Positions 3,037 to 24,285 of a stretch of DNA of 34,284 nt are shown here, in pieces. The notes under the pieces are model-generated. The model had not been told where the DNA came from, ran no database searches, and worked only from the letters and a program-made list of their open reading frames with translations. The translations under genes and the position numbers were made by a program. How positions within the stretch are numbered: position 1 is the first letter of the stretch; each line of letters starts with the position of its first letter. This DNA comes from a virus, in the IMG/VR virus record IMGVR_UViG_3300009103_000097, positions 1 to 34,284 of that record, one strand, 5' to 3'.

Positions 3037-3066
3037 TTGACAAAGAGAATAAAAACGTGATAGTAT
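3037..3066 (+). promoter_or_regulatory. Leaderless sigma-70 promoter
   Basis: TTGACA at 3037-3042, 18-bp spacer, TAGTAT at 3061-3066, then only 6 nt before the ATG at 3073. The predicted transcription start coincides with the A of the start codon. Confidence 0.75.
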
Positions 3067-3072
3067 TACATA

Positions 3073-3354
3073 ATGAGCAAAGAATCTTCAAAGAAACCAC
3101 AAAATAAAGCACTGCCCACAGGCATGGCATATAAATACGAAGTTGCGTATACGCAGTTGTTCGATATGGAAAAGGATTGGCGCAAGGCAATCATCATCGA
3201 CGAACCAACGAGTCGTCACGGCGCGGAGTTAGCTCACATGGCCGCTATCTTGGCCGAGAGAGGTGAAATATCCGCACGGGAATGCCACCTTGGCGATGTT
3301 AAATATGACCCTTATCATCTACAACAGAAGATGGCAGTTTCGGGCCAAAAATAA
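3073..3354 (+). CDS. Unknown small protein
   Basis: 93 residues with a Lys/Ser-rich start and a helical middle (HGAELAHMAAILAERGEIS). Family not recognised. The start is fixed by the promoter, whose expected +1 falls on the ATG. It is followed 11 nt later by another small gene. Confidence 0.7.
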   Translation: MSKESSKKPQNKALPTGMAYKYEVAYTQLFDMEKDWRKAIIIDEPTSRHGAELAHMAAILAERGEISARECHLGDVKYDPYHLQQKMAVSGQK

Positions 3355-3365
3355 ATATAATAATT

Positions 3366-3542
3366 ATGAACAAAAAAGACCGTAAGTATTGGGAGCAACA
3401 TAAAGAGGTTCTCAATAGAGAGTTAGAAAAATTAGATGTTAAAACTATTAGTAATATGTTTGAAGATCCACACAGTTCACATTCTAGAAAGTTCGCCGCA
3501 AAGGTAGACAGCCTAACAAAAAAAGAATTAGAATTAAGTTAA
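3366..3542 (+). CDS. Small charged alpha-helical protein (58 aa)
   Basis: 58 codons beginning MNKKDRKYWEQHKEVLNREL, highly charged and likely helical throughout. Not recognised. SD-less start in an ATAATT-ATG context. Probably translated from the transcript begun at 3073. Confidence 0.6.
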   Translation: MNKKDRKYWEQHKEVLNRELEKLDVKTISNMFEDPHSSHSRKFAAKVDSLTKKELELS

Positions 3543-3551
3543 TTAATTTTC

Positions 3552-3581
3552 TTGACAGGTATATCAAAGTTATGTTATACT
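3552..3581 (+). promoter_or_regulatory. Leaderless sigma-70 promoter
   Basis: TTGACA at 3552-3557, 18-bp spacer, TATACT at 3576-3581, 7 nt to the ATG at 3589. Confidence 0.78.
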
Positions 3582-3588
3582 TGGTCTT

Positions 3589-3858
3589 ATGGGTAGGAAA
3601 AAAGGTTCAGGACGTACAAAGGGCGCAGGGTCGTTTGTTAAAGTTTCATTAAAAGAACTTAACAGACTCTTGCGCCCAGAAGCCGTAGTTATTATTAATC
3701 GTCGTTATGCCGAGCTTATTGGTTTAGCTAATGAGGATTTCGTAGCGACTACGGAAAACATCAAAGCGGCTGGCGAACAGGTCGATTTCCAAGTGACCAA
3801 GCTAGACTCTGAAGAAGAGGCCGCTTTACCTATGACATTTAAGTCTGAAGATTGGTAA
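3589..3858 (+). CDS. Unknown small protein with basic N-terminus
   Basis: 89 residues. A basic glycine-rich start (MGRKKGSGRTKGAGSF) could contact nucleic acid; the rest is mixed alpha/beta with an acidic C-terminus. No family recognised. Single-gene unit from a leaderless promoter, and the next gene has its own. Confidence 0.7.
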   Translation: MGRKKGSGRTKGAGSFVKVSLKELNRLLRPEAVVIINRRYAELIGLANEDFVATTENIKAAGEQVDFQVTKLDSEEEAALPMTFKSEDW

Positions 3859-3867
3859 ACTTTGGGC

Positions 3868-3897
3868 TTGACTTAATTAAGAAATCCGTGCTACTAT
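3868..3897 (+). promoter_or_regulatory. Leaderless sigma-70 promoter for the RuvB-like gene
   Basis: TTGACT at 3868-3873, 18-bp spacer ending TGC (extended -10), TACTAT at 3892-3897, 6 nt to the ATG at 3904. Confidence 0.75.
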
Positions 3898-3903
3898 TAG
3901 AAC

Positions 3904-4878
3904 ATGATTACGACAGACTTATTCGATGGCCTTATCGGCCAAGACGTTGCCAAGCGTAAACTTGGCTTTTATCACGCTGGTTACATGGCTAACCAGATTG
4001 TGCCTCATCTTATGTTTGTTGCGCCGAAAGGTTGCGGCAAAACAACTCTCGCAAAAGCAATGGGTAAGTTGCTAGTGGATAGTGATGGAGAAAAACCTAA
4101 AAAGTTTTATGAAATTAATTGTGCTTCTATAAAGAATCTTAATCAATTATGTAATCAATTTTTCATTCCTCATGTCGTGCAAAATGAATGTACCGTTTTG
4201 TTTGATGAGTGCAGCGAGCTTCCAAAGGATGTGACTATGGCATTATTGACCATACTTAATCCTAATCCAGAGAATCGTAACACCTTTGCGTATGAAGATT
4301 ATGTGATGGATTTCAATTTTCGTCAACAGTCGTTCATGTTCGCTACAACTGAAGCACAAAGTATTTTCCATGCTCTCATGGATAGGTGTGAGCGTGTTGA
4401 CCTTGAGGAATATACTTTCAATGAGCTTGGCAGGATTGTTTCTCTTGGCACACCTGACGTTGAGTTTGAGGATGGGTTGTTGGATAAGATTGCTGAAGTG
4501 CTGCGTGGTAATGCGCGAGCGGCGCAGAAGATGGCAATGAATATCATGTCGTATCTTGGCGGCGTGGATAGCACCACCTTCACTTCCAAAGATTGGGATG
4601 AGTTGCAGCATCAGCTTGGCATACTTCCTCTTGGCTTGAGTCGCATTGAATTGCAAGTGTTGAATATCTTGACCGAGAAGAAAGAGTGCAGCTTAACAAA
4701 TCTCGCCGCCAAAACTGGCTTGACTCCAGAGTGCTTGCGGCGTGACTTCGAGATGTATCTTCAGAAGATGAATCTCATGGACATTACCACAGCAGGACGT
4801 TCGATAACTCCAGATGGTCAGCAGTATCTTCGGGCCTTGGAGAAGCGGCGTAATAAGAAAGCAAAAGTAAAAGCATAA
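3904..4878 (+). CDS. RuvB-like AAA+ ATPase
   Basis: 324 residues laid out like bacterial RuvB, the hexameric ATPase that drives Holliday-junction branch migration. An N-terminal FDGLIGQ block is followed by Walker A APKGCGKT (40-47), Walker B LFDE (99-102), sensor 1 FATTE (146-150), an Asp-Arg at 160-161 in the usual arginine-finger area, and a sensor 2-like GNARAAQKM near 205. The C-terminal 75 residues form a winged helix (LTNLAAKTGLTPECLRR), as in RuvB. A role in phage recombination or replication-fork processing is inferred; no RuvA or RuvC lies in the window. Expressed from its own leaderless promoter and closed by a branched terminator directly after the stop. Confidence 0.8.
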   Translation: MITTDLFDGLIGQDVAKRKLGFYHAGYMANQIVPHLMFVAPKGCGKTTLAKAMGKLLVDSDGEKPKKFYEINCASIKNLNQLCNQFFIPHVVQNECTVLFDECSELPKDVTMALLTILNPNPENRNTFAYEDYVMDFNFRQQSFMFATTEAQSIFHALMDRCERVDLEEYTFNELGRIVSLGTPDVEFEDGLLDKIAEVLRGNARAAQKMAMNIMSYLGGVDSTTFTSKDWDELQHQLGILPLGLSRIELQVLNILTEKKECSLTNLAAKTGLTPECLRRDFEMYLQKMNLMDITTAGRSITPDGQQYLRALEKRRNKKAKVKA

Positions 4879-4957
4879 GGGGTAGTGAGGAATGGAGTCG
4901 GAGGAGAACTCCGAACGGCCAAGTCGTGGCTCATGCGAACACCTCACCGCCCTTTTT
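4879..4957 (+). terminator. Branched (multi-hairpin) intrinsic terminator
   Basis: It begins at the base after the stop codon. GTGAGG (4885-4890) pairs with CCTCAC (4942-4947) and encloses two hairpins: CGGAG-GAGAA-CTCCG and GCCA-AGTCG-TGGC. GCCC then five T follow. A three-way junction before a T-run is more elaborate than an ordinary terminator, so it may also act as a small RNA or 3'-end protector. Confidence 0.75.
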
Positions 4958-5076
4958 AAATAACTTCAAATAATTTAAACTCTAAATAGGAACAAATACA
5001 AATAGGAACAAATAGAAATGTAAATAAATAATTAAAATTTTTGTAAGTTAGTGCTTGACATTTTGCGCAAGGTCTG

Positions 5077-5143: not shown

Positions 5144-5173
5144 TTGACTTAATTGCTAAACCCATGCTATACT
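5144..5173 (+). promoter_or_regulatory. Sigma-70 promoter for the DUF932-like gene
   Basis: TTGACT at 5144-5149, 18-bp spacer ending TGC, TATACT at 5168-5173. The leader is about 40 nt with a weak GA-rich site (AAAGAGAAAG) before the ATG at 5220, so this gene is not leaderless. Confidence 0.75.
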
Positions 5174-5219
5174 TTATAAAGAGTTAAGGATATAACAACT
5201 AAAGAGAAAGATACAAAAC

Positions 5220-6089
5220 ATGGCACGATCCGCTAATCAAACTGATAACTACAACTACAACGTCGAATCCGTTAAACTGTTCACTCCTGATGGCCAAGAG
5301 TCTGGCTGGTTTGGCAATCGTCGCACTGATACTGGTGACATTCTAGGCATCTGCACCGAGCAGTATAACATTGTCCAAAATGAGGATATTTTCAGCAAGG
5401 CTGATGAGGCTATCGAGTCTCGTGGTCTTACTCCTACCTCAAAGCGTATCGTAGTGAGCGATGGTGGAGCTAAAGTTCGAGGCATCTATGACTTTACTAA
5501 TGAGGTTAAGAAAGTCAAGAGCGTTGGCGATGACATGGGCTTTCGCTTAATTGTTAACAACTCCTTTGACCGTAGCTTACGCATTAGCTTCCAACTTGGA
5601 TTGCTGCGTTTGGTCTGCACCAATGGCATGACCACTCTTGAAAAAGAGTTTGACCTTACCAAAAAGCACTCTTCACAGTGCAAGCTGGATGACCTACTGA
5701 CAGATGATAATCTGGACAAGGCTTTTGGCAAGTTCGAGGCATCTCTTGGAGTGTATGACCGTCTTGCTGGTGTGAAGCTCAAGCAAGAAGAGGGATTGAA
5801 CATCCTGCAACGTCTTGCGAAAGCTAACACTATCAGCGAGAAGCTGCGCGAAGGGATTGCGAACATCTGGAACAATCCGACTTACAAAGAGGACAAAGCT
5901 CGCAACCTTTACAACCTCAACAACGCCGTGACTCAATACGTCACAGAGAACGTGGCGGAAGATAGGTTTGAGTATGCGAATCGTATCACCAGCCAAGTGT
6001 TGACCAAGTTCAACCGCGCTGCAAAGAGCAAGTCACAGCTAACCAAGCTGGCTTCCGCTCTCCCTGCGCCAGTGGTTGCAAATAACTAA
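5220..6089 (+). CDS. DUF932-family phage/plasmid protein
   Basis: 289 residues matching the DUF932 pattern, a widespread phage and plasmid family of unknown activity. Seen: GDILGICTEQYNIVQNEDIF near residue 40 (the family's V...Y.vvqN.eaf signature), the beta block GFRLIVNNSFDRSLRISFQLG, and the conserved LLRLVCTNGMT. Helical C-terminus with a basic Ser/Lys tail. It lies between a normal promoter with leader and a strong terminator, so it forms its own unit. The function of the family is not established. Confidence 0.75.
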   Translation: MARSANQTDNYNYNVESVKLFTPDGQESGWFGNRRTDTGDILGICTEQYNIVQNEDIFSKADEAIESRGLTPTSKRIVVSDGGAKVRGIYDFTNEVKKVKSVGDDMGFRLIVNNSFDRSLRISFQLGLLRLVCTNGMTTLEKEFDLTKKHSSQCKLDDLLTDDNLDKAFGKFEASLGVYDRLAGVKLKQEEGLNILQRLAKANTISEKLREGIANIWNNPTYKEDKARNLYNLNNAVTQYVTENVAEDRFEYANRITSQVLTKFNRAAKSKSQLTKLASALPAPVVANN

Positions 6090-6197: not shown

Positions 6198-6226
6198 TTG
6201 ACTTTCGGGTTGTTGTGTGCTATATT
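6198..6226 (+). promoter_or_regulatory. Leaderless early promoter
   Basis: TTGACT 6198-6203, 17-bp spacer ending TGTGC (extended -10), TATATT 6221-6226, 6 nt to the ATG at 6233. Confidence 0.85.
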
Positions 6227-6232
6227 ATAACT

Positions 6233-6355
6233 ATGAAAGACAAAGAAGAAGCCAAACAAGCAGCCGCGCAGGAAGTACCCAACTACGACGAGATGTGGAG
6301 CGTGTCAGGCTACTACCTCGACAATGACGGAAACGACATCAGAGACAGAGACTAG
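6233..6355 (+). CDS. Small acidic protein (40 aa)
   Basis: 40 residues starting MKDKEEAKQAAAQEVPNYDE: a short charged helix, then an acidic tail. Unknown function. The start is fixed by the promoter, whose expected +1 is the ATG. Single-gene unit, since another promoter follows within 20 nt. Confidence 0.65.
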   Translation: MKDKEEAKQAAAQEVPNYDEMWSVSGYYLDNDGNDIRDRD

Positions 6356-6374
6356 AGAAAAGCAAAAAAAGTGC

Positions 6375-6403
6375 TTGACAATCGACAGGAATTGTGCTAT
6401 ATT
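6375..6403 (+). promoter_or_regulatory. Leaderless early promoter
   Basis: A-tract, then TTGACA 6375-6380, 17-bp spacer ending TGTGC, TATATT 6398-6403, 6 nt to the ATG at 6410. No GC palindrome precedes this copy. Confidence 0.88.
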
Positions 6404-6409
6404 ATACTT

Positions 6410-6571
6410 ATGACAGTTAAAGAAAAGAAGAAGTTGGATTATGTGTTGTTCATGCAAGTGGTTGCTGGCACACGCAATGTGAAACCTATTGACCGTTTGG
6501 TGGCCCTCGCAAAAGATGTTGTCGCTATCCGTGACGGTGAAGAACCCAAAGAATCGAAGGAGCTTGTTTAA
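6410..6571 (+). CDS. Unknown small basic protein (53 aa)
   Basis: 53 residues, Lys-rich start (MTVKEKKKLDYVLF) with a predicted helix over the middle (IDRLVALAKDVVAIRDGEE). Not recognised. First gene of a two-gene unit; the next ATG is 1 nt beyond its stop, and an AAGGAG inside this gene serves that start. Confidence 0.65.
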   Translation: MTVKEKKKLDYVLFMQVVAGTRNVKPIDRLVALAKDVVAIRDGEEPKESKELV

Positions 6572-6572
6572 C

Positions 6573-7037
6573 ATGGAAAATCATTGGAACAAAAAAGTAG
6601 AATTGCTCTACCGTAACTGTGGCACAAACTGGGCTGTGTTTATTCGTGGCTCACTTGAGGACGTAGAGCAGGAATTTTACGGTATGTATAACCACGGAGC
6701 CACCAACGGAGAATTAGAATGGCAAACGCCAGAGAACGCTTATTTTTGGACTACTAGAGAAAAGCTCGAAAAGTGTCTCACGAACCGAGCATTGTTCTGG
6801 CTATTGAATCAAGACGGACACGAAGAATCTGACGAGGAAGAATTGCTACCCGTAGCGAAACAGATGGCTGAAACTCTCATGGGTGAGATGGTTCAACAGT
6901 CGAACTTGATGACCTTTGGGAATACTTATGACACTTATGAACTTGGTGAAGTGTCAGCGGAATCGAGCGAGGAGCATATCAACAACGGCCCATCTACTGT
7001 GCAAGTTAACATCAGCAGATTAATGGGATCTCTATAA
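6573..7037 (+). CDS. Unknown acidic protein (154 aa)
   Basis: 154 residues starting MENHWNKKVELLYRNCGTN, with a Trp/Phe-rich first half and an acidic stretch (EESDEEELL), then a likely helical region. No family recognised. Start chosen at 6573 because AAGGAG lies at 6557-6562 and the upstream extension of the frame merely overlaps the previous gene. Confidence 0.65.
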   Translation: MENHWNKKVELLYRNCGTNWAVFIRGSLEDVEQEFYGMYNHGATNGELEWQTPENAYFWTTREKLEKCLTNRALFWLLNQDGHEESDEEELLPVAKQMAETLMGEMVQQSNLMTFGNTYDTYELGEVSAESSEEHINNGPSTVQVNISRLMGSL

Positions 7038-7045
7038 AAAAGGGC

Positions 7046-7074
7046 TTGACAATCAAGCTGAAACGTGCTATATT
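7046..7074 (+). promoter_or_regulatory. Leaderless early promoter
   Basis: TTGACA 7046-7051, 17-bp spacer ending CGTGC, TATATT 7069-7074, 6 nt to the ATG at 7081. No palindrome upstream. Confidence 0.88.
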
Positions 7075-7080
7075 ATACTC

Positions 7081-7809
7081 ATGAAACTACTTGGAATCGA
7101 CACAAACGCAAAAACCCGTAAAGGCCAGAAAAAAGGTTATATGACGGGAATCTCTTACCTCGCACCCAGCAATGCCAGCGGTGTGATGAACACTTGCCCA
7201 TCAGCGAGCAAAGGCTGTCGTGCAGCTTGCCTGTTTACGTCAGGGAGAGGCCGTATGAATCCTGTTATGGAAGCTAGAATCAACAAGACAAAACTTCTTG
7301 CCAGTGATTCGCTGTCATACTTAAAACAGCTTAAACGTGAGATTGAAGCTCTAATGAAACGCGCAGCGAAGAATGATAAAACCGCCTGTGTTCGTCTCAA
7401 TGGCACTAGCGATATTGCTTGGGAGGAATACTTGTTAGACGGAAAGAATATCTTTGAGCATTTCCCGAATTGTCAATTTTACGACTACACAAAGCGTCTG
7501 GCTCGTGTTGCTGATTATGCAAACGGAAAGTTGCCGAGCAACTATCACTTGACTTTTTCTCATAGTGAAAACACTAGCGAAGAAACTGTGAAAGATGTTT
7601 TGAATCGTGGCGTGAATGTCGCTGTGGTTTACAAAGACGCTTTACCGGCAGAAGATTTCGGTGGTGTAGAGGTCGTCAATGGTGATGAAGATGATTTGCG
7701 TTTTTTAGATGCTATCGGAAAAATCGTTGGCCTAGTCTATAAGAAAACTAAAGCAACGGAAGATGAATGGAATGGCTTTGTGCGCCTCACGAAAGTAGAG
7801 GTGGCGTAA
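7081..7809 (+). CDS. Gp88-like phage protein of unknown function
   Basis: 242 residues resembling a family common in phages (I recall it as Gp88-like/DUF7227). Seen: an N-terminal block GYMTGISYLAPSNASG, then three conserved Cys (39, 46, 50; TCPSASKGCRAACL) followed by SGRGRMN, and later RLNGTSDIAWE and HLTFSHSENT. The Cys cluster suggests metal or iron-sulfur binding, an inference only. The biochemical role of the family is not established to my knowledge. Driven by a leaderless promoter; its stop overlaps the start of a membrane micropeptide. Confidence 0.65.
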   Translation: MKLLGIDTNAKTRKGQKKGYMTGISYLAPSNASGVMNTCPSASKGCRAACLFTSGRGRMNPVMEARINKTKLLASDSLSYLKQLKREIEALMKRAAKNDKTACVRLNGTSDIAWEEYLLDGKNIFEHFPNCQFYDYTKRLARVADYANGKLPSNYHLTFSHSENTSEETVKDVLNRGVNVAVVYKDALPAEDFGGVEVVNGDEDDLRFLDAIGKIVGLVYKKTKATEDEWNGFVRLTKVEVA

Positions 7810-7868
7810 TGTTAATTATTACAATCTTTATGATATGGTGTGCTTATTCTATGGCTCGAAGAATGTGA
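7809..7868 (+). CDS. Membrane micropeptide (19 aa)
   Basis: MLIITIFMIWCAYSMARRM: one hydrophobic span with a dibasic end. The ATG shares its A with the previous stop (TAATG), a layout for coupled translation. One of four 19-codon ORFs of this type, the others at 10146, 12800 and 13791. No known family. Confidence 0.55.
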   Translation: MLIITIFMIWCAYSMARRM

Positions 7869-7917
7869 TTCTTAAATAGATAATATAAAATAGGTTAGTA
7901 AAGTATCACAATTAAAT

Positions 7918-7991
7918 AGTGGTGTGGCCAAGTGGTAAGGCGTTGCTCTGCAAAAGCGAGATCGTGGGTTCGATTCCCACCACCACTTCCA
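7918..7991 (+). tRNA. tRNA-Cys (GCA)
   Basis: Complete cloverleaf: acceptor AGTGGTG/CACCACT, D-stem GCC/GGC with loop AAGTGGTAA, anticodon stem TTGCT/AGCGA with loop CTGCAAA (anticodon GCA), 4-nt variable loop, T-arm GTGGG-TTCGATT-CCCAC, discriminator T73 (a known tRNA-Cys identity base) and an encoded CCA at 7989-7991. The GC palindrome follows 8 nt after the CCA. Confidence 0.93.
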
Positions 7992-7998
7992 CTTCGGC

Positions 7999-8647: not shown

Positions 8648-8656
8648 AATTAATTC

Positions 8657-8686
8657 TTGACAAAGTGGTCAAGTTTGTGGTATTAT
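8657..8686 (+). promoter_or_regulatory. Promoter for the large structured RNA
   Basis: TTGACA 8657-8662, 18-bp spacer ending TGTGG, TATTAT 8681-8686. The expected start is near 8693 and no ORF begins there. Downstream TTCTTTGAAAATTT (8710-8723) resembles boxA-type antitermination leaders of rRNA operons. Confidence 0.75.
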
Positions 8687-8692
8687 TATATA

Positions 8693-9181
8693 CAGTTGAG
8701 CGAGAAATCGTTCTTTGAAAATTTAAGGGTGAAATTGGTGTTGCTGGACTGGATAACAGGGTTCGAAGGTCAAACAAGGCGACAGCCTGACGCAGGAAAG
8801 CCCCTAGTGGAAGCGCGACGAAGCTAGACGGTGATACGATACTGGTCGGGTCAGGTTCGAATCCTGACACCCTGAACAATTTAAGCTGACGACGGTTGGC
8901 TTAAGGGAATGGCTGAATAACCCTCCATCATAAGGGGTAAGGCATAAGGCTACTTGAGAGAGTGCAATCGTATGACTTTCGTAGTTTTAGTAGACTGGAA
9001 ACTGAACTGTATTGTGCACCGGTCTTGATGGTAATGCAGCAATCCATCTTCCCACTAATTTATAGGGTGAAGCAACAAACGTCCGCAAAGAGGAAACGGC
9101 CCAATAAACAAAGTGCAAGGAGTTGTGTCGTAACGGTGCACCGTGACACGTAAAGCACTTTAAAAATTCTCCCCTTTTTTT
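8693..9181 (+). ncRNA. Large structured noncoding RNA, class unknown
   Basis: About 490 nt with its own promoter and a terminator but no credible ORF. Seen: a 5' domain closed by AGGGTG (8726-8731) with CACCCT (8868-8873), extended by AAATT/AATTT pairing; inside it a tRNA-like T-arm TCAGG-TTCGAAT-CCTGA (8851-8867). A 10-bp hairpin follows (TTAAGCTGAC-GACG-GTTGGCTTAA, ending 8904), and a 3' domain is closed by AAAGTGC/GCACTTT with nested GTGTC/GACAC. The palindrome GTGCAC occurs twice (about 9015 and 9138), so loop-loop or intermolecular contacts are possible. Size, tRNA neighbourhood and phage location recall the ornate large RNAs GOLLD and ROOL; membership is not shown. tmRNA, RNase P RNA and intron-bearing tRNA were considered and rejected. 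Confidence 0.7.
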
Positions 9182-9221
9182 GTCGATCATAAATACCTTT
9201 TTTTGATCGGCAATTTTTTTT
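9181..9221 (+). terminator. Intrinsic terminator of the large RNA
   Basis: TGTCGATCA (9181-9189) pairs with TGATCGGCA (9204-9212) over 9 bp with one G-U, followed by A and eight T. It sits in a run of related T-tract units (T7-8 then GTCGATCAT or GATCGGCAAT) from 9174 to about 9260, giving several possible stop points. Confidence 0.7.
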
Positions 9222-9314
9222 GTCGATCATTCGTGAGCGGCTAATTCTTTTGTCAATCAATTATGGCAATTAATGAGCGACAAAGAGGGTAATTGTTTTG
9301 CAAGATAATACTGT

Positions 9315-9391
9315 TTTCGTGGGATATCTCCTCCAATAATTTCGTAAATAGCACGAATTTCTCATCGGAGAAACACCCCCTTTTTACGAAA
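9315..9391 (+). other. Nested-helix RNA element in a gene-free stretch
   Basis: The gene-free interval 9222-9447 holds this structure and little else. TTTCGT (9315-9320) pairs with ACGAAA (9386-9391), GGG with CCC just inside, TCTCC (9327-9331) with GGAGA (9367-9371), and a central hairpin TTCGT (9341-9345) with ACGAA (9353-9357). Inner and outer helices reuse the same sequence, so alternative pairings are possible. Function unknown; it could be a small RNA or the 3' part of the preceding transcript. Confidence 0.5.
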
Positions 9392-9414
9392 CTTAAATGT
9401 GATACTCATCCGGC

Positions 9415-9425
9415 GGCCCGGGGCC
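9415..9425. repeat. GC palindrome, copy 4
   Basis: GGCCCGGGGCC followed by TGAAAAAAAGTAAAAAAAGTGC and then TTGACT: the standard palindrome/A-tract/promoter order. Confidence 0.78.
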
Positions 9426-9447
9426 TGAAAAAAAGTAAAAAAAGTGC

Positions 9448-9475
9448 TTGACTTTTCGGCTGATTCCTGTATAAT
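9448..9475 (+). promoter_or_regulatory. Near-leaderless early promoter
   Basis: TTGACT 9448-9453, 16-bp spacer, perfect TATAAT 9470-9475, 9 nt to the ATG at 9485, so at most about 3 nt of leader. Confidence 0.8.
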
Positions 9476-9484
9476 CAATGGCAT

Positions 9485-9721
9485 ATGAACAACACATTAG
9501 AGAACCTATTCACCTCCCACATCAACCGTATCCAGAAGGACATTGACGAGCGAGATGGTCGGCTTCCATGCCTCACCGAAGTAGACCTCAAGAACATTGC
9601 CTCTCTACGAGAGGGCCGTGTGCCTCTGTATAGTGACCATATAGACGACAACGATGCTGGTCCGATGTGGGAGTTTGACGATATCGTCAAGGAACAACAA
9701 CGCTTGGCTACTACTCCCTAG
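9485..9721 (+). CDS. Unknown small acidic protein (78 aa)
   Basis: 78 residues starting MNNTLENLFTSHINRIQKDI, likely helical in the first half and acidic in the second. Not recognised. An out-of-frame ATG at 9478 lies even closer to the start of transcription but opens only a short frame. Confidence 0.66.
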   Translation: MNNTLENLFTSHINRIQKDIDERDGRLPCLTEVDLKNIASLREGRVPLYSDHIDDNDAGPMWEFDDIVKEQQRLATTP

Positions 9722-9728
9722 TGGAAGG

Positions 9729-9785
9729 CCTCGCTCAGTCTAGCCGCCAAAGCTGCGCTTGAGACACAGCGCGACGAGGGGCTAG
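9729..9785 (+). other. Candidate H-type pseudoknot
   Basis: CCTCG (9729-9733) pairs with CGAGG (9775-9779), and CTAGCC (9740-9745) pairs with GGCTAG (9780-9785). The 3' strands are contiguous, so the two helices could stack coaxially. A small GC hairpin fits in the loop near 9752-9772. It lies just after a stop codon and just before GC palindrome copy 5. Confidence 0.45.
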
Positions 9786-9787
9786 GC

Positions 9788-9805
9788 TCAGGGCCCGGGC
9801 CCTGA
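9788..9805. repeat. GC palindrome, copy 5 (perfect 18 bp)
   Basis: TCAGGGCCCGGGCCCTGA, a perfect 18-bp palindrome and the best candidate for the consensus of the family, followed by AAAAAAGTGC and TTGACA. Confidence 0.88.
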
Positions 9806-9814
9806 AAAAAGTGC

Positions 9815-9843
9815 TTGACAAACACCCGTTTATGTGTTACATT
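9815..9843 (+). promoter_or_regulatory. Leaderless early promoter for the ArfA-like gene
   Basis: TTGACA 9815-9820, 17-bp spacer ending TGTGT, TACATT 9838-9843, 6 nt to the ATG at 9850. Confidence 0.85.
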
Positions 9844-9849
9844 ATAACA

Positions 9850-9978
9850 ATGAAACGACGAATCAAAGCACGGGTCAACAGAGATGGCCTGATGGGCAGC
9901 GCGTCTCGTGTCCATCGTGTGAGGAAGGGCAAGGGCTCTTATTGTCGTAAGTCTAAACACAAGAAAAATGAGTGGTAA
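9850..9978 (+). CDS. arfA: Minimal ArfA-like ribosome-rescue factor (42 aa)
   Basis: 42 residues, very basic. The block VRKGKGSYCRKSKHKK (residues 23-38) matches the core KGKGSYMRKGKH region of E. coli ArfA, and the preceding GLMGSASRVHR sits where ArfA contacts the release factor. In E. coli, ArfA recruits RF2 to ribosomes stalled on mRNAs without a stop codon, as a backup to tmRNA. E. coli ArfA is about 72 residues and this one is much shorter, so the family call is by motif. Expressed from a leaderless promoter; the 3' end overlaps the next gene by 11 nt. A small basic protein of another kind remains possible. Confidence 0.65.
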   Translation: MKRRIKARVNRDGLMGSASRVHRVRKGKGSYCRKSKHKKNEW

Positions 9979-10144
9979 CTATTATGATGATGAAGGTTAC
10001 TTGGGCGATCACTATGTCGGTCAAAGTAAGTATGACTATGTACTCAAGGAGTGCAAGCGGTGTGGTCAGAAGGTGGACATGAGTTCTGATCATGCTATCT
10101 GTAATTCATGTGCCGATGCAATGGAGCGTGGGTGGGAGTATTGA
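9968..10144 (+). CDS. Small zinc-ribbon protein (58 aa)
   Basis: 58 residues with two Cys pairs, CKRCG and CNSC, about 17 residues apart, the layout of a zinc ribbon. The N-terminus is Tyr/Gly/Asp-rich (MSGNYYDDEGYLGDHYVG). The role is unknown; small zinc proteins in phage early regions often bind host proteins or nucleic acid. Overlaps the end of the ArfA-like gene by 11 nt, which suggests coupled translation. Confidence 0.65.
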   Translation: MSGNYYDDEGYLGDHYVGQSKYDYVLKECKRCGQKVDMSSDHAICNSCADAMERGWEY

Positions 10145-10145
10145 T

Positions 10146-10205
10146 TTGATCCTGCTTACCCTGCTAATAATAGTAACGATTTGGCTAATGGTTAAGAGGT
10201 ACTGA
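10146..10205 (+). CDS. Membrane micropeptide with TTG start (19 aa)
   Basis: TTG-initiated 19-codon ORF; read from a formyl-Met start it is MILLTLLIIVTIWLMVKRY. One hydrophobic span with a Lys-Arg end, 1 nt after the zinc-ribbon stop, preceded by a GGGAG about 9 nt upstream. Matches the micropeptides at 7809, 12800 and 13791 in length and pattern. Start codon uncertain. Confidence 0.45.
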   Translation: MILLTLLIIVTIWLMVKRY

Positions 10206-10207
10206 GG

Positions 10208-10231
10208 GAGCCCGGGGTCTGAAAGTCAAGC
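10208..10231. repeat. GC palindrome, copy 6, with inverted -35-like arm
   Basis: AGCCCGGGGTCT (core CCCGGG 10211-10216) followed by GAAAGTCAAGC, an inverted TTGAC motif as in copies 2 and 9, then the A-tract. Confidence 0.7.
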
Positions 10232-10254
10232 ATAAAAAAAAATAAAAAAACCCC

Positions 10255-10283
10255 TTGACAAGAGGCTGTTTCTGTGTTATATT
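10255..10283 (+). promoter_or_regulatory. Leaderless early promoter
   Basis: TTGACA 10255-10260, 17-bp spacer ending TGTGT, TATATT 10278-10283, 7 nt to the ATG at 10291. Long A-tract upstream. Confidence 0.88.
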
Positions 10284-10290
10284 ATGTCAT

Positions 10291-10536
10291 ATGAAAAACG
10301 ATACAGTAACTCAAACCATCACCGAAGCCCAAGTCACCCAGCGCAAGCTGAATGAGATTAACAACAATTTCAACCTCACCGATGAGTACGTCGAGCATTT
10401 GGATCAAGCCGTGACTCAACTACTAGCTAACAAGGAACGCCTGAATAAGGCTCTAGGCATCCTCAACAAGCTGCCTTCTTCCTTGGAGGATAAGTTCGTC
10501 AAGGTCGACCCTAACCAGCAAGGACGCCGCTGGTAG
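10291..10536 (+). CDS. Unknown helical protein, possible coiled coil (81 aa)
   Basis: 81 residues starting MKNDTVTQTITEAQVTQRKL, predicted mostly helical with heptad-like spacing (LDQAVTQLLANKERLNKALG), so perhaps a short coiled-coil oligomer. The basic C-terminus ends GRRW. Start chosen at 10291 because transcription is expected to begin there; an in-frame extension to 10255 would lie within the promoter. Confidence 0.66.
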   Translation: MKNDTVTQTITEAQVTQRKLNEINNNFNLTDEYVEHLDQAVTQLLANKERLNKALGILNKLPSSLEDKFVKVDPNQQGRRW

Positions 10537-10541
10537 GCCTT

Positions 10542-10565
10542 GGCCCTTCGGGGCCCGGGCCCTGA
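10542..10565. repeat. GC palindrome, copy 7, joined to a UUCG hairpin
   Basis: GGCCC-TTCG-GGGCC (10542-10555) forms a 5-bp UUCG hairpin that overlaps the palindrome GGGCCCGGGCCC (10551-10562) and TGA. The alternative hairpin could act as an upstream 3'-end structure. Confidence 0.75.
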
Positions 10566-10584
10566 AAAAAGTTAAAAAAATCGC

Positions 10585-10613
10585 TTGACAAACACCCATT
10601 CCTGTGTTATATT
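10585..10613 (+). promoter_or_regulatory. Leaderless early promoter
   Basis: TTGACA 10585-10590, 17-bp spacer ending TGTGT, TATATT 10608-10613, 6 nt to the ATG at 10620. Confidence 0.88.
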
Positions 10614-10619
10614 ATACCA

Positions 10620-10826
10620 ATGATGAGCGAGATGGATAATTTCAAAGAGGAGGCGGCTTTCCGTCTATTCGGGCGCAGCCGTATGCTGGCTATTGCTGGC
10701 AAGGGGTGCGTGAAGTGCGGCGAGAGCGCAGCGGATTTCCGCGACGAACTCTCCCGTAAGGAGTATGGCATTTCTGGCTTTTGCCAGTCGTGTCAGGACG
10801 ACATCTTCGGAGGCCCAGAATCATGA
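10620..10826 (+). CDS. Small phage zinc-finger protein (68 aa)
   Basis: 68 residues with CVKCGE and CQSC pairs and the segment FRDELSRKEYGISGFCQ between them, a pattern I recall from small zinc-finger proteins in many phages; function not established. There are two in-frame ATGs (10620 and 10623) at the predicted transcription start. The stop overlaps the next gene's start as ATGA. Confidence 0.7.
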   Translation: MMSEMDNFKEEAAFRLFGRSRMLAIAGKGCVKCGESAADFRDELSRKEYGISGFCQSCQDDIFGGPES

Positions 10827-10969
10827 CCTCAGAAACAGATAAATTAAGTGGGCTATTAGATAGCATTAATAGCGAAGAAGAGTGGTTGGCCTATGGGGAA
10901 TCTCTCCCCTTAACGCCAATAGACCCAAATGATGATGTCCCTTGGGATTATGATACAAAAATCTTCTGA
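10823..10969 (+). CDS. Unknown small acidic protein (48 aa)
   Basis: 48 residues starting MTSETDKLSGLLDSINSEEE, acidic (DPNDDVPWDYD). ATGA overlap with the zinc-finger gene and a GGAGG at 10809-10813, 9 nt upstream, make this the likely start. The stop TGA abuts GC palindrome copy 8. Function unknown. Confidence 0.62.
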   Translation: MTSETDKLSGLLDSINSEEEWLAYGESLPLTPIDPNDDVPWDYDTKIF

Positions 10970-10983
10970 GGCCCGGGGCCTGA
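10967..10983. repeat. GC palindrome, copy 8
   Basis: TGAGGCCCGGGGCCTGA. The first TGA is the stop codon of the preceding gene. An A-tract and a promoter follow. Confidence 0.82.
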
Positions 10984-11013
10984 AAAAAAAGTAAAAAAAG
11001 TGCCTTCCAGCCC

Positions 11014-11042
11014 TTGACAAGGGGCCATTTGTGTGCTATATT
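11014..11042 (+). promoter_or_regulatory. Leaderless early promoter
   Basis: TTGACA 11014-11019, 17-bp spacer ending TGTGC, TATATT 11037-11042, 6 nt to the ATG at 11049. The sequence AAAAAAAGTGCC-TTCCAGCCC before the -35 closely repeats that upstream of 8043. Confidence 0.9.
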
Positions 11043-11048
11043 ATGGTA

Positions 11049-11330
11049 ATGAAAAACGATACTCCAACTTACACCCTCTGGAACGGGCCTACTCTAATCG
11101 ACACTTTTGAGCATAACCGTGAGGGCTATGACTCTGCTCTAGAGCGAGCTTTCGACCTTGGCCCTAGTGCCTCCATCTACTCCACTCGTGATGACCTTGT
11201 GTGGTCTGCGCGTGAAGATGAGCCAAATGAGCCTAGCGATGCGTGGCACGATGCCGACGCGCTTGCCTCTGCTGGATGGGGTACTGATGAGGATTATGGC
11301 TGCTACGGCCCAGAGGATTGCTGGGAATAG
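11049..11330 (+). CDS. Unknown acidic protein (94 aa)
   Basis: 93 codons starting MKNDTPTYTLWNGPTLIDTF, Asp/Glu/Ala-rich, ending in a Gly/Cys/Trp patch (DYGCYGPEDCWE). The N-terminus resembles that of the 10291 product over the first few residues (MKNDT), perhaps from cassette duplication. Function unknown. An in-frame ATG at 11043 lies upstream of the expected transcription start. Confidence 0.65.
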   Translation: MKNDTPTYTLWNGPTLIDTFEHNREGYDSALERAFDLGPSASIYSTRDDLVWSAREDEPNEPSDAWHDADALASAGWGTDEDYGCYGPEDCWE

Positions 11331-11336
11331 CAATCT

Positions 11337-11356
11337 CAGGCCCCGGGCTGTCAAGC
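11337..11356. repeat. GC palindrome, copy 9, with inverted -35-like arm
   Basis: CAGGCCCCGGGCTGTCAAGC: the palindrome plus an inverted TTGACA motif, followed by an A-tract. The promoter proper lies 33 nt further on. Confidence 0.75.
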
Positions 11357-11388
11357 AAAAAAAGTTATTCACAATCGAAGAAAGTGCC

Positions 11389-11417
11389 TTGACAAACGGG
11401 TGATTCTGTGCTATATT
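11389..11417 (+). promoter_or_regulatory. Early promoter with short leader
   Basis: TTGACA 11389-11394, 17-bp spacer ending TGTGC, TATATT 11412-11417. The ATG is 15 nt downstream (11433), so the leader is about 8 nt with no Shine-Dalgarno sequence. Confidence 0.87.
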
Positions 11418-11432
11418 ATAAGTATAACAACG

Positions 11433-11636
11433 ATGAAAAACTACACACCGACAATCGCTCAAAGAACTAGGATGATGAGTGCTATTGAAAACGAGCTAGA
11501 ACGAGAGAATCCGAATTATGCACATTTGACTATTACCTTTGGTATGATGCAGCACGCTGCCAACGAAGGCACAGGAGGAGACCATTACGACTATTTAGAG
11601 AGATTGTGGAATATGTTCAATCTCGAAAAAAGATGA
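11433..11636 (+). CDS. Unknown small protein (67 aa)
   Basis: 67 residues starting MKNYTPTIAQRTRMMSAIEN, mainly helical by composition. The first seven residues echo those of the 11049 product (MKNDTPT). Unknown function. Start at 11433 because the in-frame codons further upstream fall before the expected transcript start. Confidence 0.65.
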   Translation: MKNYTPTIAQRTRMMSAIENELERENPNYAHLTITFGMMQHAANEGTGGDHYDYLERLWNMFNLEKR

Positions 11637-11645
11637 AAAAAGTGC

Positions 11646-11674
11646 TTGACAAACGGTCGATTATGTGGTATATT
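11646..11674 (+). promoter_or_regulatory. Early promoter with short leader
   Basis: TTGACA 11646-11651, 17-bp spacer ending TGTGG, TATATT 11669-11674. The ATG is 14 nt downstream. Begins 9 nt after the previous stop, with no palindrome. Confidence 0.86.
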
Positions 11675-11688
11675 TAGGTATTAAGATT

Positions 11689-11943
11689 ATGATAAACGAG
11701 ACAGAACTATTACTGAATCAAGAGGTAGAAGTGACATTCCAACGAAGCCAACTTTGGGGCAAGCGTGGTCACGTTCTAGGCATTATGGCTGATGGTCGCA
11801 CATTGGATATTGAGCTACACGGTGGCAAACGGGTATTCCTAGATGTCACTTTTGTGGATGAGATTCGTGAACGCACACAGTTCGCCAAGACCGAGCAAAG
11901 TCTCGGCCCAATCGCTAACCATCTCATTAAGGACACGCTTTAA
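11689..11943 (+). CDS. Unknown protein, possible SH3-like beta barrel (84 aa)
   Basis: 84 residues starting MINETELLLNQEVEVTFQRS. The centre (KRGHVLGIMADGRTLDIELH) looks like a small beta barrel of the KOW/SH3 kind, an inference from strand spacing. The C-terminus is charged. It heads a run of five tightly packed or overlapping small genes up to 12551 served by one promoter. Confidence 0.65.
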   Translation: MINETELLLNQEVEVTFQRSQLWGKRGHVLGIMADGRTLDIELHGGKRVFLDVTFVDEIRERTQFAKTEQSLGPIANHLIKDTL

Positions 11944-11945
11944 TT

Positions 11946-12176
11946 ATGAAACTCATTGTAAAGGAAATGCCCGCAAGGCAAAAGTTCTATCAGTTAGTAG
12001 ATGCTGCGTGTTACGCTAGATTGGGATGCTCCATGCATGACTTGCCTGATTTCCCATATAGTGACTACTATGATGATGAGATTGCGTCTCACGAGGAAAT
12101 GGTTAATGCAGCGGATATGTGCATTGAGGATTTAGTGCTTGAGCTTAAAAATGATTGCGAAGGATATTGGTTATGA
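11946..12176 (+). CDS. Unknown small acidic protein (76 aa)
   Basis: 76 residues starting MKLIVKEMPARQKFYQLVDA, acidic in the middle (DLPDFPYSDYYDDEI), helical towards the end. Two nucleotides separate it from the previous stop; the start context is TTTAATT-ATG without a Shine-Dalgarno sequence. Not recognised. Confidence 0.62.
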   Translation: MKLIVKEMPARQKFYQLVDAACYARLGCSMHDLPDFPYSDYYDDEIASHEEMVNAADMCIEDLVLELKNDCEGYWL

Positions 12177-12256
12177 AGAATTGGCTTGATATGTATGGCG
12201 TATGGCTTGCGATAATTCTCTACTTCATTATAACAACTATTATTTGGAAATGGTAA
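12173..12256 (+). CDS. Small single-span membrane peptide (27 aa)
   Basis: 27 residues: MKNWLDMYGVWLAIILYF and a further hydrophobic stretch ending TTIIWKW. ATGA overlap with the previous gene and an AAGGA about 8 nt upstream support translation. One of several tiny membrane proteins here. Confidence 0.55.
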   Translation: MKNWLDMYGVWLAIILYFIITTIIWKW

Positions 12257-12405
12257 AAAAACAAAAAGAACAAAAGCCTGTGATGGCGAAATTAGTATGT
12301 GTGTTAAAAGATAAGCCTAAAGGTCTTACTCTTAACGAAATCAAAGGCAAAGGTTTACAACTACCTTCTGGCCCCGCTTTAATCAATGGACAATGGACTT
12401 GGTAA
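12250..12405 (+). CDS. Small basic protein (51 aa)
   Basis: 51 residues starting MVKKQKEQKPVMAKLVCVLK, Lys-rich with a compact Gly/Leu part (GLTLNEIKGKGLQL). The start overlaps the last 7 nt of the membrane peptide, which implies coupled translation. Function unknown. Confidence 0.58.
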   Translation: MVKKQKEQKPVMAKLVCVLKDKPKGLTLNEIKGKGLQLPSGPALINGQWTW

Positions 12406-12407
12406 TT

Positions 12408-12551
12408 ATGAACGAAGAATACGCAAAGCATTTAATAGAAAATTCAAATGAGGGGCCTATTACTCTTTGGCTCAAATTCGTACTTGTGCAAATAGGTTTT
12501 GGCTTGCTACTAATGGGCATCATAGGCCTTTGCCTATGGGTCGCCAGCTGA
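12408..12551 (+). CDS. Small single-span membrane protein (47 aa)
   Basis: 47 residues: a soluble charged start (MNEEYAKHLIENSNEG), then a long hydrophobic span (WLKFVLVQIGFGLLLMGIIG). Start context GTAATT-ATG, SD-less. The stop TGA abuts GC palindrome copy 10. Unknown function; membrane location inferred. Confidence 0.6.
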   Translation: MNEEYAKHLIENSNEGPITLWLKFVLVQIGFGLLLMGIIGLCLWVAS

Positions 12552-12564
12552 GGGCCCGGGGCTC
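12549..12564. repeat. GC palindrome, copy 10
   Basis: TGAGGGCCCGGGGCTC, with the first three bases being the upstream stop codon. AAAAAAAGTAAAAAAA and a promoter follow. Confidence 0.8.
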
Positions 12565-12584
12565 AAAAAAAGTAAAAAAACCCC

Positions 12585-12613
12585 TTGACAGCACCTTATA
12601 TCTGTGGTATATT
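12585..12613 (+). promoter_or_regulatory. Leaderless early promoter
   Basis: TTGACA 12585-12590, 17-bp spacer ending TGTGG, TATATT 12608-12613, 5 nt to the ATG at 12619. Confidence 0.88.
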
Positions 12614-12618
12614 ATAGC

Positions 12619-12792
12619 ATGATTGAACGACAAGATTGGACTATCACCTTCAACGATGGCAGCACTGCCAACTACTACCAAATGACTGCCTTGGAGGCGC
12701 TCAGAATCGCAGCCAATGACTGGTGGGGCTTAAAGCATCCCGTAGAATGGGCTCCGCTTGAGCGTGTCAGCGTATGGGATTTGGAGTATTAA
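12619..12792 (+). CDS. Unknown small protein (57 aa)
   Basis: 57 residues starting MIERQDWTITFNDGSTANYY, Trp-rich, probably an N-terminal beta hairpin and a central helix (MTALEALRIAANDWWG). Not recognised. Followed 7 nt later by a membrane micropeptide in the same unit. Confidence 0.64.
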   Translation: MIERQDWTITFNDGSTANYYQMTALEALRIAANDWWGLKHPVEWAPLERVSVWDLEY

Positions 12793-12799
12793 GAGGCCC

Positions 12800-12859
12800 A
12801 TGTTGCTAATAGCGCTAATAGTGGTGTGGTGGACATGGCTCGCAGTGGAGCAGGTCTGA
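12800..12859 (+). CDS. Membrane micropeptide (19 aa)
   Basis: MLLIALIVVWWTWLAVEQV: a single hydrophobic span, 19 codons like those at 7809, 10146 and 13791. The stop TGA forms the left arm of GC palindrome copy 11. No obvious Shine-Dalgarno sequence (AAGAGGCCC-ATG). Confidence 0.5.
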   Translation: MLLIALIVVWWTWLAVEQV

Positions 12860-12873
12860 GGGCCCGGGCCTTG
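12857..12873. repeat. GC palindrome, copy 11
   Basis: TGAGGGCCCGGGCCTTG; the leading TGA is the micropeptide stop. An A-tract and a promoter follow within 12 nt. Confidence 0.82.
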
Positions 12874-12883
12874 AAAAAAGTCC

Positions 12884-12912
12884 TTGACAAGGAGGTGTTT
12901 GTGTGCTATATT
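12884..12912 (+). promoter_or_regulatory. Leaderless early promoter
   Basis: TTGACA 12884-12889, 17-bp spacer ending TGTGC, TATATT 12907-12912, 5 nt to the ATG at 12918. Confidence 0.88.
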
Positions 12913-12917
12913 ACAGT

Positions 12918-13091
12918 ATGACATTTAACAAAGGCGACAAAGTAGCGCATAGAGATAACCCAATTCATTGGAGAGGTGAGGTGACAGAGGTGAAATTAAA
13001 TGGGCGAATGAAGGTGATGCTCATCAACGGTACTGAGGTAGAGGTCGGGCCATATGTGCCATTGAAGCCAGATGTCTTTGCTGACGAATAA
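12918..13091 (+). CDS. Unknown protein, possible SH3-like domain (57 aa)
   Basis: 57 residues starting MTFNKGDKVAHRDNPIHWRG. KGDKVAH, GEVTEVKLNGRMKVML and GTEVEVGPYVPL suggest a five-strand SH3-like barrel of the size seen in small nucleic-acid- or protein-binding phage proteins (inference). Single-gene unit, with GC-rich inverted repeats after the stop. Confidence 0.65.
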   Translation: MTFNKGDKVAHRDNPIHWRGEVTEVKLNGRMKVMLINGTEVEVGPYVPLKPDVFADE

Positions 13092-13101
13092 GCAATGACC
13101 C

Positions 13102-13130
13102 ACCCCCCATGGGGGAGGGGGTACCCCCCA
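13102..13130. repeat. C/G-run inverted repeats
   Basis: Alternating runs C6-AT-G5-A-G5-TA-C6: the central G runs can pair with either C run, giving two mutually exclusive hairpins. It sits after a stop codon with no T-run. It could be a 3'-end structure or a replication/recombination hotspot. Confidence 0.6.
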
Positions 13131-13139
13131 CCCCTACTC

Positions 13140-13179
13140 GAGGCCCGGGGTTTGAGACATGACCCGGATGGGGTGCCTC
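13140..13179. repeat. GC palindrome, copy 12, within a larger hairpin
   Basis: GAGGC (13140-13144) pairs with GCCTC (13175-13179), and CCGGG with CCCGG inside, so the usual CCCGGG element is part of a longer stem-loop here. The promoter lies 16 nt downstream. Confidence 0.65.
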
Positions 13180-13194
13180 TCTAGAAAAAAGCCC

Positions 13195-13223
13195 TTGACA
13201 GACCAACACTTTTGTGGTATATT
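13195..13223 (+). promoter_or_regulatory. Leaderless early promoter
   Basis: TTGACA 13195-13200, 17-bp spacer ending TGTGG, TATATT 13218-13223, 5 nt to the ATG at 13229. Confidence 0.87.
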
Positions 13224-13228
13224 ATGGT

Positions 13229-13327
13229 ATGAAAGATGATTATAGAGACATTTATTTCGTGATTTGCGTCGGTATATTTTCCTTCCTCGCTATTTTGGCA
13301 ACAGGAATTTACATCGAGACGCTTTAG
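13229..13327 (+). CDS. Small single-span membrane protein (32 aa)
   Basis: 32 residues: an acidic start (MKDDYRDIY), then one hydrophobic span (FVICVGIFSFLAILATGIYI). Its own strong leaderless promoter argues that this tiny ORF is real. Function unknown. Confidence 0.65.
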   Translation: MKDDYRDIYFVICVGIFSFLAILATGIYIETL

Positions 13328-13360
13328 CCGTTCTTTTTGGCTTGGCTCGACCTCTGATTC

Positions 13361-13375
13361 GGCCCCCGGGGTGCC
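13361..13375. repeat. GC palindrome, copy 13 (degenerate)
   Basis: GGCCCCCGGGGTGCC: the core is kept and the arms are imperfect. A T/A-rich tract and a promoter follow. Last copy in the window. Confidence 0.7.
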
Positions 13376-13402
13376 TGTGAATAACTTTTTTTAAAAAACC
13401 CC

Positions 13403-13431
13403 TTGACAAAGGGTCATTTCTGTGGTATATT
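13403..13431 (+). promoter_or_regulatory. Leaderless early promoter
   Basis: TTGACA 13403-13408, 17-bp spacer ending TGTGG, TATATT 13426-13431, 6 nt to the ATG at 13438. Last promoter of the array. Confidence 0.88.
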
Positions 13432-13437
13432 ATACTA

Positions 13438-13602
13438 ATGAAAACGATAAAAAGGTTCAACGACGAATTCAATCGCATGTTTAACGATGATATCTTCATG
13501 CCGATGATAAAATTTTCAGGTTTACTGATTTTTCTCCTCATTATTTTGGATTATAGCTTTCAGATGATCGAAGCGATCGATATTTTAACGGTGGGACCGT
13601 AG
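13438..13602 (+). CDS. Small membrane protein (54 aa)
   Basis: 54 residues: a basic/charged N-terminus (MKTIKRFNDEFNRMFNDD), a hydrophobic span (IKFSGLLIFLLIILDYSF) and a short tail. Probably an inner-membrane protein with a cytoplasmic N-terminus. Function unknown; the start is fixed by the leaderless promoter. Confidence 0.65.
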   Translation: MKTIKRFNDEFNRMFNDDIFMPMIKFSGLLIFLLIILDYSFQMIEAIDILTVGP

Positions 13603-24281: not shown

Positions 24282-24285
24282 AATT

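Follow-up and report, generated by a model that had tools for sequence, protein, structure and literature searches.

Promoters ending at the start codon point to a family-wide leaderless expression plan in a group of related phages

Promoter array in the window

The virus record IMGVR_UViG_3300009103_000097 (positions 1-34,284; this whole stretch of 34,284 nucleotides (nt) is hereafter called the window) carries an array of mostly small genes that lie directly behind strong promoters (Table 1). In this work, the gap is the number of nt between the -10 hexamer and the ATG. On the + strand, we found 16 sigma-70-type promoters between positions 6198 and 13431, all of the same type and each located before an open reading frame (ORF) of 32-242 codons. 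These promoters have TTGACA or TTGACT as the -35 element, an extended TGn in 15 of the 16, and usually TATATT-ATA; the spacer measures 17 bp except at 9448, where it is 16 bp. The array had been noticed in a preliminary description made from the DNA letters alone, and all 16 promoters were recovered in our promoter scan with the spacers given there; the extended TGn that it ascribed to all of them is present in 15 and absent from 9448.

The gap is 5-7 nt in 13 of these promoters (those listed from 6198 to 13403 in Table 1, apart from 8657 and the three named next), 9 nt in one (9448), and 14-15 nt in two (11646 and 11389), which corresponds to a leader of about 8-9 nt. Re-reading the promoters gave the same short gaps as described before, and 11389 and 11646 are likewise the only two of the 16 with a leader of this size (previously put at 8 nt). 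Three additional promoters with 18-bp spacers, for which gaps of 6-7 nt had been claimed, have gaps of 6, 7, and 6 nt (3037, TAGTAT; 3552, TATACT; 3868, TACTAT); those at 3037 and 3868 were slightly under the cut-off of the promoter scan and were taken directly from the sequence. The site at 17688 had been said to repeat the geometry and does so in its gap of 7 nt behind TATAAT, but it has no good -35 and no TGn. The count is thus 17 leaderless-type starts within 3037-13440, two short-leader starts, and one more leaderless-type start at 17701. The same general promoter type occurs without this geometry at three window sites (421, 5144, and 8657).

The window contains 11 instances of the pattern TTGACA-N14-TGn-TATATTAT-N0-25-ATG, and 100 shuffles that preserve dinucleotides yielded none. 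The window promoters show the hallmarks of sigma-70 promoters (-35 TTGACA, 16-18 bp, TATAAT-like -10), and the genes behind them show that of TA-led genes, namely, a hexamer resembling a -10 some 10-12 bp upstream of the start codon. The 5-9 nt preceding the ATG contain no Shine-Dalgarno (SD) core at any of the 18 leaderless-type starts in the window, and the promoter lies further upstream.

Table 1. Promoters, genes, and RNA elements of the window, with gaps in nt and protein lengths in amino acids (aa); G numbers denote related contigs.
Coordinates	Strand	Promoter	Gap	Gene or element	Relatives and remarks
421 (promoter)			27		Leadered; GGAG before ATG
3037-3354	+	TTGACA-18-TAGTAT (3037-3066)	6	ORF 3073-3354 (93 aa)	G001 orthologue gap 6, 84/93 identical
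3552-3858	+	TTGACA-18-TATACT	7	ORF 3589-3858 (89 aa)	Promoter with gap 6-8 in G001, G025, G009, G013, G012; none called in G026, G029
3868-4878	+	TTGACT-18-TACTAT	6	ORF 3904-4878 (AAA+/RuvB-like, 324 aa)	
5144-6089	+	TTGACT-18-TATACT	46	DUF932 gene 5220-6089	Leadered
6198-6355	+	TTGACT-17-TGnTATATT	6	ORF 6233-6355 (40 aa)	Orthologue not found in G001
6375-6571	+		6	ORF 6410-6571 (53 aa)	G001 gap 7, 50/53 identical; no promoter called in G029, G009, G013, G016
7046-7809	+		6	ORF 7081-7809 (GP88 family, 242 aa)	
7918-7991	+			tRNA-Cys(GCA)	
8043-8363	+		7	ORF 8079-8363 (94 aa)	G001 gap 7, discriminator bases changed
8360-8647	+		7	ORF 8396-8647 (83 aa)	
8657-9058	+	TTGACA-18-TATTAT	No ATG within 60 nt	tRNA-like RNA (~8693-8875) and manA RNA (8882-9058)	
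9448-9721	+	TTGACT-16-TATAAT	9	ORF 9485-9721 (78 aa)	G001 gap 9
9815-9978	+	TTGACA-17-TGnTACATT	6	ORF 9850-9978 (42 aa)	G029 gap 7, G012 gap 6
10255-10536	+		7	ORF 10291-10536 (81 aa)	
10585-10826	+		6	ORF 10620-10826 (68 aa)	Gap 6-8 in G001, G029, G013; none called in G025, G016, G027
11014-11330	+		6	ORF 11049-11330 (93 aa)	Second in-frame ATG right after -10
11389-11636	+		15 (leader ~8-9 nt)	ORF 11433-11636	DnaA-box-like site 11365-11373; G001 gap same
11646-11943	+		14 (leader ~8 nt)	ORF 11689-11943	G001 gap same
12585-12792	+		5	ORF 12619-12792 (57 aa)	
12884-13091	+		5	ORF 12918-13091 (57 aa)	SD-like core before internal GTGs, codons 21 and 24
13195-13327	+		5	ORF 13229-13327 (32 aa)	
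13403-13602	+		6	ORF 13438-13602 (54 aa)	DnaA-box-like site 13376-13384; gap 6 in G001, G018, G008; none called in G029
17688-18120	+	-10 TATAAT	7	ORF 17701-18120 (cysteine-rich start, 139 aa)	Head of sigma-like/terminase block

Evidence for coding from the promoter-proximal ATG

The close relative G001 (95.5 kb) has most of the same promoters, with equal or nearly equal gaps. Across 1624 aligned codons of the window and G001, the differences at codon positions 1, 2, and 3 number 88, 70, and 254, and the same phase is seen near the starts, with 8, 8, and 21 differences in codons 2-13 (204 codons). This codon comparison involved 17 of the 18 ORFs compared, two short-leader ORFs included; 6233 has no orthologue and 6410 was left out. 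Most ORFs of the two genomes can be aligned from their first Met onwards. This N-terminal alignment and the codon phase of the differences support coding from the promoter-proximal ATG.

These comparisons bear on two other readings of the array. One is that the genes are leadered after all, with transcripts that start upstream or with true starts that lie downstream behind an SD. Gaps of 14-50 nt are present at 15 of 110 promoters of the same genomes (see below), and gene 12918 has GTG codons preceded by GAGG. However, 12918 is the only one of the 18 leaderless-type starts with an internal in-frame start within 30 codons that has an SD-like core, and the alignment from the first Met and the codon-phased differences from codon 2 also argue against this reading, which we regard as decidedly improbable. 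Start codons further downstream, named in the preliminary description as one of two findings that would overturn its proposal, are not favoured. The other reading is that the small ORFs are not genes and that the promoters make short RNAs, in favour of which one promoter (8657) does precede structured RNAs. Given the third-position excess of differences over 17 ORFs pooled and the presence of protein-level orthologues, it is exceedingly improbable for the array, and the codon-phased divergence led us to disfavour a small-RNA interpretation of these ORFs.

Promoter-to-ATG geometry among relatives

Searches with the terminase yielded 353 confirmed IMG/VR relatives, and the best 80 of these 353 (70-89% identity) were retained. 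Strong promoters were matched in 17 of 30 records, namely, in all 10 that a promoter pattern had retrieved and in 7 of the 20 that homology had led to; a reversed control pattern matched 0 of 30. We then read 14 contigs: the window, six found by the gap-6 pattern, and seven reached by homology. Among the latter, G018, G020, and G027 were fetched since they held promoter matches, whatever the gap; G008 is tied to the family solely through one small ORF (27/48). These contigs contain 126 promoters, or 110 after dropping 16 near-identical ones, for which the gap was measured to the first ATG opening an ORF of at least 25 codons.

The gap is 5-8 nt in 75 of the 110 promoters, compared with 1.3% when the 60 nt after the -10 were shuffled. 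The full distribution is 5 nt (7 promoters), 6 (47), 7 (17), 8 (4), 9 (9), 0 (2), 14-15 (2), 22-50 (13), and none (9); one of the two gap-0 promoters is 11014 in the window, which has another in-frame ATG at 6. By source, gaps of 5-8 nt account for 12/18 in the window, 46/61 in the six contigs found by the gap-6 pattern, and 17/31 in the seven homology contigs (this split, like that of the record matches above, was made by eye). In control viral contigs, where equally strong promoters were sought without an ATG condition, only 7/114 and 3/86 (10/200) have gaps of 5-8 nt and 91/200 have gaps of 15-45 nt. Aligning the -10-to-ATG intervals across the genome and its relatives, as the preliminary description had suggested, thus extends its observation to 14 contigs. 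The pattern is family-wide, yet not universal, and is not confined to the window; the leaderless arrangement is the commonest one behind strong promoters in this phage family and applies to about 17 mostly small genes of the window.

The signal is also present beyond the strong promoters. A -10-like hexamer is located 5-8 nt before the ATG in 131 of 966 ORF starts (13.6%) of the 14 contigs and in 59 of 478 in three large relatives selected through their terminase (G025, G026, and G029), compared with 59 of 2151 (2.7%) in the control viral contigs, which have more -10s at 17-36 nt; the ORFs in such scans are first-ATG ORFs of at least 60 codons (at least 60 or at least 100, depending on the scan), not curated genes. 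SD-like cores were found in 21% of the starts in the 14 contigs, 22% in G025/G026/G029, and 44% in the controls. In the per-contig scan, G027 has no signal of a -10 at 5-8 nt and G018 has only two cases. The geometry is not confined to a putative early region, since it recurs in part of the orthologues of 17701, the gene that opens the downstream block, and elsewhere in the genomes. The promoter type and the small ORFs suggest, as hints only, that these genes may be expressed early.

For the GP88 gene, a -10 at gap 6-8 is found in the window, G001, G026, G029, G025, G009, and G012, with proteins of 28%-99% identity to that of the window; in G012, the start was called at an internal TTG, and the gap is 6 when measured to the in-frame ATG just before it. 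The DUF932 gene has a leader of 45-51 nt in six of eight full-length orthologues (the window counted), and no promoter was called in G025 and G026. The AAA+ gene of G026 is preceded by a -10 at gap 8, with no matching -35. For gene 17701, we examined 80 terminase loci, of which 51 have an orthologue; after nine redundant ones were set aside, a -10 lies at 5-8 nt in 19 of 42 and at 4-11 nt in 25 of 42. By eye, seven have a -10 at 12-19 nt, which we take as the background of this AT-rich stretch, and an AGGA-type motif instead precedes the ATG at L147, L207, L212, and L213 (by eye). This gene seems to occur in both leaderless and SD-led contexts, judging from these upstream regions.

Several observations weigh against a uniform leaderless arrangement or limit the sampling behind it. 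Genes 11433 and 11689 keep leaders of 8-9 nt in the window and G001 alike, only two of seven orthologues of the AAA+ gene have a promoter with gap 6-8 (G001, gap 6; G025, gap 8), and a -10 at 4-11 nt is missing from 17 of the 42 orthologues of 17701. No strong-promoter match was found in 13 of the 20 homology-reached records, and a strong promoter lies within 10 kb of the terminase in only 7 of the 80 loci, although many flanks may fall short of that distance. The more distant GP88 relatives L003-L009 gave no convincing case, while L002 shows two. Moreover, the pattern that retrieved six of the 14 contigs required one gap of 6, the window was picked for the feature, and the presence of a strong promoter was the criterion for selecting the control contigs. 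Finally, a gap of 5 (seven promoters) needs a start one base earlier than expected (see below), and a gap of 7 (17 promoters) leaves a 1-nt leader.

Proposed initiation, promoter cassettes, and known systems

A sigma-70 RNA polymerase of the host type would start some 7 nt downstream of the -10 hexamer. All 13 promoters with a gap of 8 or 9 have an A at position 7 behind the -10, and with a gap of 6 this position is the A of the ATG. Such a pattern would be expected if the polymerase starts at position 7, in which case genes with gap 6 would lack a leader and those with gaps 8-9 would have one of 2-3 nt. The start point would then be the A of the ATG or at most 3 nt away from it, such that the mRNAs would be leaderless and probably read by a 5'-AUG (70S-type) route and not by way of an SD. 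A leaderless array, as the preliminary description proposed, is supported by the promoter-to-ATG distance, coding from the first codons, the near absence of internal SD-led starts (1 of 18), conservation in several orthologues, and the contrast with the viral controls. We consider it highly probable that this phage family has a family-wide leaderless expression plan in which repeated promoter cassettes end at the start codon. By comparison, a dedicated leaderless programme is unlikely; in such a programme, infection would shift the host to 5'-AUG initiation (by 70S or modified ribosomes), leaderless phage messages would beat SD-led host ones, and the promoter-to-ATG cassettes would be the heritable unit.

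The repeated element (A-tracts, TTGACA, 17 bp, and TGnTATATT-ATA) ends near the start codon and may form, with its ORF, a self-contained promoter-plus-ORF cassette, such that recombination at the repeat could swap cassettes without breaking translation. Two cassettes are in swapped order between the window (10235-10580 and 10551-10788) and G001 (36907-37253 and 36312-36549), for which such recombination may be the cause. This raises the question of whether leaderless starts are a tolerated, unselected by-product of promoter shuffling, in which a repeated element ending at the ATG spreads by recombination. The swapped order fits this explanation, as do direct repeats of 49-82 nt that span the A-tract and the promoter and end a few nt from the ATG or just past it. 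However, similar gaps are found with other spacers in relatives (G025, GGATAACC-TATACT; G029, TAACTATC-TATAAT), where the spacer beside the -10 is unlike that of the window and the gap is equal or 1-2 nt longer, and also at starts with a weak -35 (17701), so a single shared repeat is insufficient alone. In addition, the repeat similarity extends into the ORF in one pair (10291 and 11049). A by-product of promoter shuffling is possible but rather doubtful.

Two kinds of elements accompany these promoters. The 9-mer TTATTCACA or its complement (at most one mismatch), which we take to be DnaA-box-like, is located within 40 nt upstream of the -35 at 35 of 110 promoters, compared with 1.7% of random positions. 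Its offsets are mostly repeated (4-5 or 15-16 nt in one orientation and 8 or 17-19 nt in the other, spaced by roughly one helical turn), and it occurs at two promoters of the window (Table 1) and at promoters of G009, G013, G014, G016, G029, and others. Palindromes of the GGCCCGGG type precede the A-tracts of many promoters (5079, 6157, 7999, 9415, 9792, 10552, 10970, 12553, 12861, and 13142) and, judged by eye, are unlike ordinary terminators.

The leaderless plan may also simply follow the host, if the host itself uses leaderless or weak-SD initiation widely. The low frequency of SD-like motifs in the family contigs relative to the controls and the genome-wide -10 signal are consistent with this explanation, and so is a bacterial precedent: in Lactococcus cremoris, about 13% of mRNAs are leaderless and the leader lengths have a similar two-mode distribution (PMC10986495). 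On the other hand, G325, the one bacterial genome scanned, has no enrichment (a -10 at 5-8 nt in 8 cases vs. 2-12 in other bins, among 299 ORFs), although its link to the phages as a host is very weak. On balance, a host habit is quite conceivable, with a chance slightly short of even.

Candidate hosts were sought in several ways. The gap-6 promoter pattern was found in 88 GTDB-genome stretches with one match each, many of them from Clostridia, and a host search with the terminase in GTDB genomes gave 10 pattern stretches and no confirmed relative. G001 carries metabolic genes (L130:1144-7556) that encode an aldehyde dehydrogenase, a saccharopine dehydrogenase-like protein, and glycosyltransferases, together with an ECF-like (extracytoplasmic function) sigma factor. 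Matches to the aldehyde dehydrogenase were found in 9 of 199 genomes (E ≤ 1e-130, 46-49% identity) in the phylum of G038, which is titled a Planctomycetes metagenome-assembled genome, and in 0 of 194 in the phylum of G037, 0 of 299 in that of G039, and 0 of 8 starting genomes at 1e-100. Those to the saccharopine dehydrogenase-like gene (54 of 199 and 8 of 194 genomes at E ≤ 1e-20, 28-38% identity) are uninformative. We drew no host from these metabolic-gene matches; G325, which is one of the nine genomes, has no leaderless signal.

To our knowledge, leaderless messages in phages are known mostly as single cases. One example is the cI gene of lambda, which is transcribed from the promoter PRM. 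Its mRNA is leaderless (review PMC9031893) and thus has a 5'-terminal AUG in a phage message, as predicted here, but this is a single coliphage gene compared with about 17 genes in the window and many in its relatives. For bacteria, Zheng et al. (2011, PMC3160421) recognize leaderless genes by a TA-like signal some 10-12 bp ahead of the start. These TA-led genes share the -10-like signal seen here, and several low-GC genomes have a TG before the Pribnow box; unlike the bacterial and archaeal genomes of that study, the present case concerns a phage family, in which a near-consensus -35 and an extended -10 recur in gene after gene. The leaders in Lactococcus cremoris are either <5 nt or about 40 nt, and none were found between 4 and 14 nt (PMC10986495). 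These two modes resemble our gap classes of 5-9 and 22-50 nt, but they are bacterial RNA data, whereas here the leader is deduced from promoter position in phages and two genes have 8-9 nt. Phage transcripts are often leaderless according to the AR9 paper (PMC5312081), but the 5' untranslated regions of AR9 itself are 26-491 nt long, unlike the leaderless genes here. A literature search by titles and the beginnings of abstracts, with most subscription papers outside its scope, found no description of a leaderless phage gene array among the papers listed. Leaderless genes are already known, so we class the system as a variant of something known.

In this family, nature offers a setting in which to study the conditions that favour leaderless initiation, its conversion into SD-led initiation, and its relevance, if any, in infection. 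Its value lies in cases where one orthologue stays leaderless and another is leadered over large divergence. In such phages, gene callers that rely on an SD model may put starts in the wrong place or overlook very small genes.

Other features of these genomes include the RNAs behind promoter 8657 and the genes adjoining the terminase. The tRNA-like region is conserved, with a T-arm (GGTTCGAATCC), a possible acceptor stem, and a related sequence in G013, and had no match in ARAGORN or Rfam. The relative G029 has a second manA RNA at L215:4518-4696. Two ORFs with collagen-like Gly-X-Y repeats adjoin the terminase (22686-25767); the second is a match to Pfam Collagen and the first was recognized by eye.

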